This document shows, in pieces, positions 7,385-10,834 of a DNA stretch of 64,000 nucleotides. The notes under the pieces were generated by a model that saw nothing but the letters and a program-made list of their open reading frames with translations, was not told the origin of the DNA and did no database searches. The position numbers were made by a program, and so were the translations under genes. How positions within the stretch are numbered: position 1 is the stretch's first letter; each line of letters begins with the position of its first letter. Source of the stretch: Candidatus Nanopelagicales bacterium (lineage in GTDB: Bacteria; Actinomycetota; Actinomycetes; Nanopelagicales; Nanopelagicaceae); the NCBI GenBank assembly GCA_030834095.1, contig JAURGA010000001.1:40018-104017 (forward strand). Reading direction: 5' to 3'.

Positions 7385-8236
7385 ATGCGCAAATCATTAG
7401 CAGGGGCTTTAGCATTTTTAATTATTGGGTCAAGTATTGGCAGCGGGGTAGCCAATGCTCATCAACCTTTAGTTCTGTTGGATACAGATACATCAGCTGC
7501 TAAAGGTCCGCTGATTGTCGATGGAACACTTTCATTTGCTGTGCGAGCTGCATTCACTAAAGCCGGCCAGAAGAAGGCTTTTCGCGCCCAATTTAAAGAG
7601 GGCGAAGAGCTCACTGTTCAGTATTTGATAGTTGATAAAAAACCAGAGAGCGCTTTGCGCAAAAAGTCTTTGCCAAAACTTGTGATTACAAGTCCAACGG
7701 GATCTAAAGTTAGAATGAAATTTACAGAACGAACAAAATTTTTTGAGCCTTACAGTGGCGTTAATTATCTTTATCTTGGGCGCTATAACAGTGAAGCGCA
7801 GGGTGGTATTTATAGCTTTGAAATCACTTCAAAGAGTAGAGCAGCAATCACAATTGGCGTTGGCGAAAAAGAGGGTGTAGTTGGTGAGGTAATTCGCGGA
7901 AATAATGAGGCACCAAAACCAGTTGCAACTCCAACTCCAACACCAAAGCCAGTTGCAACTCCAACACCAACTCCAACATCAACTCCAATGGCAGAACAGA
8001 GTGGTTACACCATGGGGAAAGTTCGGGCCAATAACAGCGAGGCTAGCTGCTGGTCAGTTATCGATGGAAATGTTTATGATTTAACAAAGTGGATTGGTTC
8101 GCACCCAGGTGGAAGGGGAAACATACTTTCACTTTGTGGCAAGAATGGAACTGCAGAATTTGCAGCTAAACACAGAGGGGATAGCAATCCTCAAGCACGG
8201 CTAAGGGGATACTTGCTAGGGCCACTAGCAGATTAA
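7385..8236 (+). CDS. Exported protein with C-terminal cytochrome b5-like heme domain
   Basis: The 283-residue protein has three parts. A signal peptide (MRKSLAG, hydrophobic stretch, VANA-H near residue 25) is followed by an unassigned domain to about residue 175. A Pro/Thr linker made of PKPVATPTPT repeats spans about 177-205. A cytochrome b5 fold covers about 206-283: SCWSVIDGNVYDLTKW, then HPGG (His 240) and AAKHRGD (His 263), the two expected axial heme ligands. Export implies heme handling or electron transfer outside the membrane. The partner is unknown. The gene converges with whiB 22 bases away. Confidence 0.8.
   Translation: MRKSLAGALAFLIIGSSIGSGVANAHQPLVLLDTDTSAAKGPLIVDGTLSFAVRAAFTKAGQKKAFRAQFKEGEELTVQYLIVDKKPESALRKKSLPKLVITSPTGSKVRMKFTERTKFFEPYSGVNYLYLGRYNSEAQGGIYSFEITSKSRAAITIGVGEKEGVVGEVIRGNNEAPKPVATPTPTPKPVATPTPTPTSTPMAEQSGYTMGKVRANNSEASCWSVIDGNVYDLTKWIGSHPGGRGNILSLCGKNGTAEFAAKHRGDSNPQARLRGYLLGPLAD
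7909..7995 (+). repeat. In-gene repeat encoding a Pro-Thr linker
   Basis: A near-perfect duplication of a segment beginning CCAAAACCAGTTGCAACTCC, merging into ACTCCAACACCA units, encodes the PKPVATPTPTP linker between the two domains of the exported cytochrome b5 protein. Confidence 0.75.
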
Positions 8237-8257: not shown

Positions 8258-8566
8258 TTAAGAAGCAGAAGAGAATGAGTGCTCGACAACTTTCTGTTCA
8301 CGACTTAAAATTGTTAAGCGATCTTCTTCAGTAAGTCCGCCCCAAATACCATATGGCTCAGCCAGAGTTAGTGCTTGTTTTCTGCACGCTTGAATTACTG
8401 GGCAAGAAGCACAAACTGCCTTAGCAGCGTTCTCGCGATTCTTGCGGCGAGGACCACGTTCGCCATCTGTGTAGAAGAACATTTCAGTTGGAAGCTCGCG
8501 ACAGGCAGCAGATTCTTGCCACTCCCAATCAGATGCGATTGGTCTAGGTTCTAATTGACTTGTCAT
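8258..8566 (-). CDS. whiB3: WhiB3/WhiD-type [4Fe-4S] transcription regulator
   Basis: The 102-residue protein has the four Wbl cysteines (Cys22, 52, 55, 61; the last three as CxxCxxxxxC) and a GIWGG turn at 73-77. MFFYTDGERG and the basic RRKNRE segment match WhiB3/WhiD rather than WhiB1 or WhiB2. Such proteins carry an oxygen- and NO-sensitive cluster and bind the primary sigma factor. The start at 8566 is chosen because GGAG lies a few bases upstream; the frame extends further but with non-family residues. In M. tuberculosis whiB3 (Rv3416) also lies between groEL1 and guaB, as I recall, which supports orthology. Confidence 0.92.
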   Translation of the reverse strand: MTSQLEPRPIASDWEWQESAACRELPTEMFFYTDGERGPRRKNRENAAKAVCASCPVIQACRKQALTLAEPYGIWGGLTEEDRLTILSREQKVVEHSFSSAS

Positions 8567-8715
8567 TTTGGCTCCAATTCCTATTCCGTGTATGGCCCTA
8601 ATGCTACAACCGCGCCATAGGTTGTTCAAGTATTTTGGGGGTTTTGTTGCCAAATTGCTGCAAAATTCCAAGGTTTCAAGTGGCGCGCCTCACTCTTAGT
8701 AGGGAGAATTGCGGA

Positions 8716-9648
8716 ATGGCCCGCACAATCGACACAGTTGTCGAAACTCTTGACGAAGATGATTCTCTAACCGTCGCAGCCGTCGCCAGAAGGCTCGGAG
8801 TGGCCCCAGCAACCCTTCGAACCTGGGACCGCCGATATGGCATTGGCCCAAGTGAACATGATTCTGGAACTCATAGAAGATATTCCGCAACAGACTTAAT
8901 GAGATTAACCGCAATGGCTCGGCTAATTGTTGCTGGTGTTTCACCTAAAGATGCAGCTAGTAAGGCGCTCGCTTTAAGCACTAAGAGCACAAAGAATAAA
9001 GTTGAGAAAGTCGTTCAAGAATCTGAAGCTAAATGCGATTTAGTCGCACTGCTCTATAAATCTGCCTTGAAGTTTGATCAAGCTAATATCGAAAAGTTGT
9101 TGAAGAAATCAATATCCGAAAGCGGATTGGAAACGACCTGGATTGAAGTTATCGCACCGTTGCTGACTGACGTCGGCAATGATTGGGCTCGAACTGGAAT
9201 CGGTATTGAGACCGAACATTTCTTAAGCGAAGTCTTACGTAAAATCCTTAGCGAAAATTTAGGGAAAATAGCAAAGCCAAAAAACGCTCGACCGGTCTTG
9301 CTGGCGTGTGTTGAAAATGAATACCACTCACTTGCACTAGCCGCTCTTGCCGCGGTCCTTGCTGAGTCAGGAGTTGAATGTATCTATCTTGGCGCAAGGA
9401 CTCCACAAAGTGCATTGAACGAAGTCATCATTAAATCTGCGCCACCAGCAATTTTTCTCTGGGCTCAGTTGAGTGAAAATGCAGATCATAAGTATGTTAA
9501 ATCCCTGCCAGCAATCCGACCGGCTCCACGAATACTTCTTGGCGGACCAGGATGGAAATCTTCGAAAGTTGAGTTAACAAATAAGTTGGTTATCACCAAA
9601 GGATTAAGCGATGCTCGAGAGCAGATAATGCAGGCTGTTGCTCTTTGA
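8716..9648 (+). CDS. MerR-type regulator with cobalamin-binding domain (CarH/LitR-like)
   Basis: This 310-residue protein has an N-terminal MerR helix-turn-helix (residues about 18-80: LTVAAVARRLGVAPATLRTWDRRYG). A helical bundle follows with W157 and E167-H168, which is exactly the Wx9EH signature of CarH. The B12-binding Rossmann domain carries E202-Y-H204, the ExHxxG motif with Ala in place of the last Gly. H204 would be the lower axial ligand. In CarH/LitR, adenosylcobalamin makes the repressor light-sensitive. Light sensing here is inference. GGGAG precedes the ATG at 8716. Divergent from whiB3. Confidence 0.85.
   Translation: MARTIDTVVETLDEDDSLTVAAVARRLGVAPATLRTWDRRYGIGPSEHDSGTHRRYSATDLMRLTAMARLIVAGVSPKDAASKALALSTKSTKNKVEKVVQESEAKCDLVALLYKSALKFDQANIEKLLKKSISESGLETTWIEVIAPLLTDVGNDWARTGIGIETEHFLSEVLRKILSENLGKIAKPKNARPVLLACVENEYHSLALAALAAVLAESGVECIYLGARTPQSALNEVIIKSAPPAIFLWAQLSENADHKYVKSLPAIRPAPRILLGGPGWKSSKVELTNKLVITKGLSDAREQIMQAVAL

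Positions 9649-9709: not shown

Positions 9710-10834
<1,125 letters not shown>

Follow-up and report, generated by a model that had tools for sequence, protein, structure and literature searches.

In the 64,000-nucleotide stretch of DNA analysed here (the window), the gene for a CarH-like MerR-type regulator (merB12) lies divergent from the gene for a WhiB3-like iron–sulfur regulator (whiB) and is followed by guaB, and the intergenic DNA of the divergent pair carries a putative operator within a predicted promoter. The features, with the evidence for each, are as follows.

8258–8566, minus strand: whiB, WhiB3-like Fe–S regulator, 102 amino acids counted from the ATG; divergent from merB12 and its proposed target (Pfam Whib, 1.9e-22; PDB match)
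8601–8629, minus strand: predicted whiB promoter, −35 TTGAAC (8629–8624), 17-bp spacer, −10 TAGCAT (8606–8601) (layout in 78 loci)
8606–8625, no strand assigned: putative operator, perfect dyad ACAACC-GCGCCATA-GGTTGT (conservation; co-occurrence with the gene)
8716–9648, plus strand: merB12, CarH-like MerR-type regulator, 310 amino acids (ORF; Pfam; AlphaFold2 model; Foldseek)
8770–8955, plus strand: winged-helix MerR DNA-binding domain, amino acids 19–80 (Pfam)
9052–9252, plus strand: four-helix bundle B12-binding_2, amino acids 113–179, with W157, E167 and H168 (Wx9EH) (Pfam; conservation)
9187–9189, plus strand: A158, equivalent of His132 in Thermus thermophilus CarH (TtCarH) (column counts)
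9295–9561, plus strand: Rossmann B12-binding domain, amino acids 194–282, E202-x-H204-x2-A207, x41, W249-x-Q251, x24, G276-G277 (Pfam; hhalign to TtCarH; column counts)
9325–9327, plus strand: H204, predicted lower axial cobalt ligand, equivalent of TtCarH His177 (His in 107/107)
9460–9462, plus strand: W249, family-specific, where the classical SxT/V has Ser (hhalign to TtCarH; Trp in 106/107)
9713–10834, plus strand: guaB (IMP dehydrogenase), conserved gene downstream of merB12; marks the gene-loss site and lies outside the mechanism (locus comparison)

The merB12 reading frame is open throughout, and its ATG start agrees with the orthologues too. Pfam recognizes MerR_1 (1.3e-13, amino acids 19–80), B12-binding_2 (2.7e-9, amino acids 113–179) and B12-binding (1.5e-10, amino acids 194–282) in the product, all above the gathering cut-off. 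Among solved structures TtCarH is nearest in sequence (E approximately 1e-23, about 30% identity), and an AlphaFold2 model built from 57 family members (mean pLDDT 90.3) has full-length TtCarH (5c8f, 5c8e and 5c8d; E approximately 1e-15) as its top Foldseek matches. With CarH and LitR of class I the protein shares a MerR domain with RxW(E/D)RRY, a four-helix bundle with Wx9EH, a Rossmann domain with E-x-His and GG, a GxxxP interface loop, and the position of its gene divergent from or beside the proposed target. The recognition helix (RTWDRRY, amino acids 35–41) has the form RxW.RRY, nearly invariant across 107 sequences, and corresponds to the CarH recognition motif RxWERRY (PMC9304148). The NCBIfam CarH model (NF052513) scored the protein at 116.9 bits, below its cut-off of 400. 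The merB12 protein is CarH-like in architecture, yet it is not a canonical CarH and is not to be filed as one.

Relatives of merB12 were drawn from 60 related genomes, named genome contigs and plasmid records, and 107 members were aligned. The original prediction, a CarH/LitR-like B12 photoreceptor beside whiB3, rested on an exact Wx9EH (W157, E167-H168), on E202-Y203-H204 and on an ExHxxG motif whose last Gly is Ala (A207), and all of these residues are confirmed in the ORF translation. Across the family, Trp occupies position 157 in 105 of the 107 members, Glu position 167 in 106 and His position 168 in 105, and H204, P230 and an acidic residue (Glu or Asp) at position 202 occur in all 107, a degree of conservation that we do not put down to chance; loss of H204 in close relatives, named at the outset as one result that would refute that prediction, was therefore not found. 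Together with a cobalamin adenosyltransferase encoded in the genome, the Trp, Glu, His and His set favours adenosylcobalamin (AdoCbl) as the probable ligand. CarH-like paralogues in other actinobacteria lack both W249 and W280, by which the merB12 protein is assigned, on alignment, to a subfamily of its own. In two such paralogues (L221 and L223, from genomes G062 and G150), the Trp, the Glu-His and the lower-ligand His are all gone, and these proteins are apparently ligand-free relatives.

The family departs from CarH at several positions that the original prediction did not mention (A158, W249/Q251 and N201). Measured against the classical B12 motif, D/ExHx2G/P-x41-SxT/V-x22-27-GG (PMC9304148), the merB12 protein keeps the spacings (x41 and x24) and the GG (G276-G277), whereas the Gly/Pro position 207 is Ala in the window (Ala in 72 and Pro in 32 of the 107 members) and SxT/V is replaced by W249-x-Q251, with Trp249 in 106/107 and Q251 in nearly the whole family. 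Immediately before the lower ligand, GxxH is absent (N201-E-Y-H204), Gly being found at position 201 in only 7 of the 107. Given Ala for Gly in ExHxxG, Trp249 for Ser and Asn201 for Gly, the pocket for the cobalamin base may be altered. One reading goes further and holds that no base-tucked cobalamin is bound at all, the domain being either ligand-free, like that of Myxococcus xanthus CarA, or occupied by another tetrapyrrole (for example, heme, as has been suggested for SCHIC domains, considered here because of W249 and A207). The nearly family-wide W249 and Q251 with GG spacing retained, and the precedent of paralogues such as L221 and L223, are consistent with it, but a ligand-free domain has no need of an invariant H204 and a nearly invariant adenosyl-contact triad, and CarA, which acts without B12, has lost the Trp of Wx9EH (PMC9304148) that the merB12 family keeps; we consider this reading unlikely.

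The neighbour is indeed WhiB3-like, as had been predicted: the best PDB match of the whiB product is Mycobacterium tuberculosis WhiB3 (8cwr, 3e-26, versus 1e-11 for WhiB1). The divergent whiB/merB12 pair recurs in nearly all loci with enough flanking sequence, usually with guaB next, and ranges from the genus of the window, within the planktonic Nanopelagicaceae, to Pseudonocardia oroxyli, Saccharothrix deserti and Motilibacter deserti; on this comparison of loci, merB12 is an ancestral, or at least ancient, divergent partner of the WhiB3-like gene across Actinomycetes. In P. oroxyli (L131, 3389–9970), a groES-groEL-whiB/merB12 block is followed by genes for a LuxR-type response regulator and a sigma factor, an arrangement that we take to be reminiscent of the mycobacterial whiB3-sigD-guaB2 region. 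In the window, whiB is adjoined on its other side (7385–8236, plus strand) by a gene for a secreted-looking protein with an N-terminal signal-like stretch and a C-terminal cytochrome b5-like heme domain (Pfam 2.5e-15).

The DNA separating whiB from merB12 contains a conserved 25-bp block, TACAACCGCGCCATAGGTTGTTCAA (8605–8629), with a mean column conservation of 94% versus 47% in the remaining intergenic region (29 aligned loci), and this block encloses the perfect dyad ACAACC-N8-GGTTGT. The dyad fills the 17-bp spacer of the predicted whiB promoter, TTGAAC-N17-TAGCAT, and overlaps both hexamers. Of 78 loci that share this layout, 71 have a 17-bp and 7 an 18-bp spacer, and in approximately 31 loci the whiB ATG follows the −10 element by 6 nt, a leaderless arrangement that supports the assignment as a real promoter; a strict sigma-70 scan did not call it because the −10 element is weak. 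The −35 arm of the dyad holds one CarH half-site, TnnACA (TGAACA), which is paired with an inverted arm, and no tandem 11-bp nnnnTnnACAn repeats were found at the putative operator. CarH operators, in contrast, consist of three or four tandem 11-bp repeats. For CarA, too, inverted repeats were proposed first and later replaced by direct repeats (PMC9304148), a precedent that calls for caution in reading the present site as a palindrome.

Within the window's family, the dyad motif (at most two mismatches) and the gene co-occur one to one, as the motif occurs exactly once in each of the 24 genomes that have merB12 and in none of the 13 without it (Fisher 3e-10, uncorrected for kinship). The locus was read in seven merB12-less genomes of the window's genus: all seven retain whiB, which stands immediately next to guaB, and have lost the dyad. 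The best guaB DNA and protein trees place four to five merB12 losses within the genus, only one of which is forced by well-supported branches; with so few forced losses, the joint loss of gene and site is no strong independent test, and in some cases both could have been deleted together. It is from this side that the dyad might instead be read as belonging to the core whiB promoter, recognized not by the merB12 protein but by another factor, such as a sigma factor or WhiB, and lost with merB12 in one deletion spanning both. The overlap with both hexamers, the single forced loss and two loss genomes with a whiB–guaB gap of only 64 bp all fit such a reading. Against it, whiB is kept in every loss genome read, five of them have 156–228 bp of intergenic DNA without a dyad, and class-wide conservation extends to spacer bases that do not matter to sigma factors, so that we think it improbable.

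The site appears to serve a single target. No further occurrence of the dyad at up to two mismatches was found in the host genome outside the whiB–merB12 locus. We rejected a wider regulon, as the bare pattern ACAAY-N10-GTTGT gave 7–13 strand matches per genome in six genomes, about as many as the reversed-pattern control, and the whiB site was the only full motif that these genomes had in common. A canonical carotenoid-controlling CarH was likewise rejected, given that the phytoene synthase of the host genome is encoded on another contig than merB12 and that the site is found nowhere else in the genome. A looser, class-wide version of the motif had 27 matches in 148 genomes (4 for the reversed-pattern control), 18 of them exactly between whiB and merB12; the other 9, near unrelated genes (for example, of yidD/rnpA type or dus type), were judged chance-like, although they exceed the 4 control matches.

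The matching palindrome in the whiB promoter suggests that the merB12 protein directly switches whiB on and off. A winged helix–turn–helix protein whose gene neighbours a promoter with a dyad between −35 and −10 has the configuration of a MerR-superfamily regulator of a divergent gene, and classical MerR regulators likewise use a pseudo-palindrome at this position of a divergent promoter. Classical MerR activators work at long spacers of 19–20 bp, whereas the spacer at the merB12 site is 17–18 bp, so that repression is to be expected; where the −35 and −10 elements are near-optimally spaced, a protein of MerR type bound to the palindrome between them would most simply block the promoter. The TtCarH residues of the dimer and tetramer interfaces (R176, D201 and G160) are not retained in the merB12 family alignment, in keeping with a dimer bound to a palindrome. 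CarA offers a parallel as a dimer with a MerR and a B12-type domain that represses a sigma-A promoter, dimerization and repression being our proposal in the case of merB12. We therefore propose, with slightly more confidence than doubt, that the merB12 protein acts as a MerR-type repressor dedicated to the divergent whiB, with a CarH-like corrinoid-sensing domain and an AdoCbl-held dimer on the dyad. In this model, bound AdoCbl would keep the dimer active, with Trp157, Glu167 and His168 around the adenosyl group and His204 on the cobalt; the active dimer would sit on the dyad in the 17-bp spacer and thereby block RNA polymerase; and loss of the AdoCbl state (through photolysis, oxidation or B12 shortage) would release the dimer from the DNA and allow the WhiB3-like protein to be made.

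Which signal such a repressor would answer to depends on how the departures from CarH are weighed. Under a strict CarH/LitR photoreceptor reading, AdoCbl would hold the protein as an oligomer in the dark, light would break the Co–C bond and dissociate the oligomer, and whiB, rather than carotenoid genes as in CarH, would be turned on. Wx9EH, the lower His and the interface Pro of GxxxP are all retained, and the host is a planktonic cell with a rhodopsin gene in its genome. Of the light-responsive signature (GxxW, EH, GxxH and GxxxP; PMC11796333), however, the protein has three of the four elements, GxxH being the missing one. In TtCarH, His132 becomes the second axial cobalt ligand after light, and the H132A variant binds AdoCbl normally and stays mostly tetrameric in aerobic light, although an earlier report differed (PMC10442372); the equivalent position 158 is Ala in the window and His in none of the 107 members. 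The absence of this His is not decisive, as CtMerR (PMC11796333), a CarH-like protein that resembles merB12 in its W, EH, lower His and GxxxP but has Arg where TtCarH has His132, nevertheless dissociates from tetramer to monomer on illumination; unlike merB12, CtMerR has a demonstrated light response and keeps GxxH, the Gly of which (Gly201) contacts the corrin. The sub-threshold CarH model score, the inverted rather than tandem repeats, the Trp in place of the base-pocket Ser and the failure to find a carotenoid or photolyase gene linked to merB12 weigh further against a strict photoreceptor. Hence, of the original prediction, the CarH-like architecture and ligand residues stand, whereas the specific photoreceptor claim is not supported; we regard it as a serious possibility that falls short of being probable, and light control of whiB by the merB12 protein as possible.

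Alternatively, the protein may sense the supply or form of corrinoid rather than light, AdoCbl binding tuning whiB to B12 status. The host genome encodes a PduO-type cobalamin adenosyltransferase (that is, it is equipped to make AdoCbl) along with MetH-like and mutase-type B12 domains, none of the 107 members could form a bis-His light state, and the family extends to soil actinobacteria (for example, Saccharothrix and Pseudonocardia). The residues that contact the adenosyl group are, however, the same W, E and H as in photoreceptors, and within the genus the presence of merB12 does not correlate with that of a small mutase-type B12 protein; we put this reading forward only tentatively. In one genome of the same genus (G021, 91% complete), a PduO-type cobalamin adenosyltransferase is present and no B12-binding-domain protein was found. 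Returning to the repressor model, the best-supported description of the merB12 protein is a CarH-like, probably AdoCbl-dependent regulator of whiB.

The real gain over the original prediction is the putative operator and the ancient pairing with whiB. Little is known about the signals upstream of most WhiB-type genes. For many genera, the present analysis predicts a conserved regulator jointly with its probable single target and the precise site; in the literature searched, no paper linked whiB, CarH and MerR, and none linked WhiB3, MerR, vitamin B12 and Actinobacteria. Should AdoCbl prove to be the ligand, Fe–S redox regulation in bacteria that are among the most abundant in fresh water would take input from B12 chemistry and perhaps from light; should the base pocket be closed off by W249, the family would represent a new way of using a B12 domain. 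A broader and more doubtful conjecture is that this distinct, class-wide B12-type branch (marked by a base-pocket Trp and the lack of a second His for cobalt) might be the dedicated switch of a WhiB3-like regulator across Actinomycetes, with a changed mode of corrinoid or tetrapyrrole use that couples light or corrinoid state to WhiB redox control.

Further conserved sequence was noted in and beyond this locus. In one family (f5; L213, L215 and L217, read in L213 and L215), the loose whiB-promoter motif lies near a dus-like (tRNA-dihydrouridine synthase) gene, which is possibly a second target or possibly chance. In most Nanopelagicaceae loci, a second conserved patch, TTTCRRGTGG (approximately 8671–8688 in the window), lies about 30–45 bp before the merB12 start and is perhaps the gene's own promoter or a second site for the regulator.
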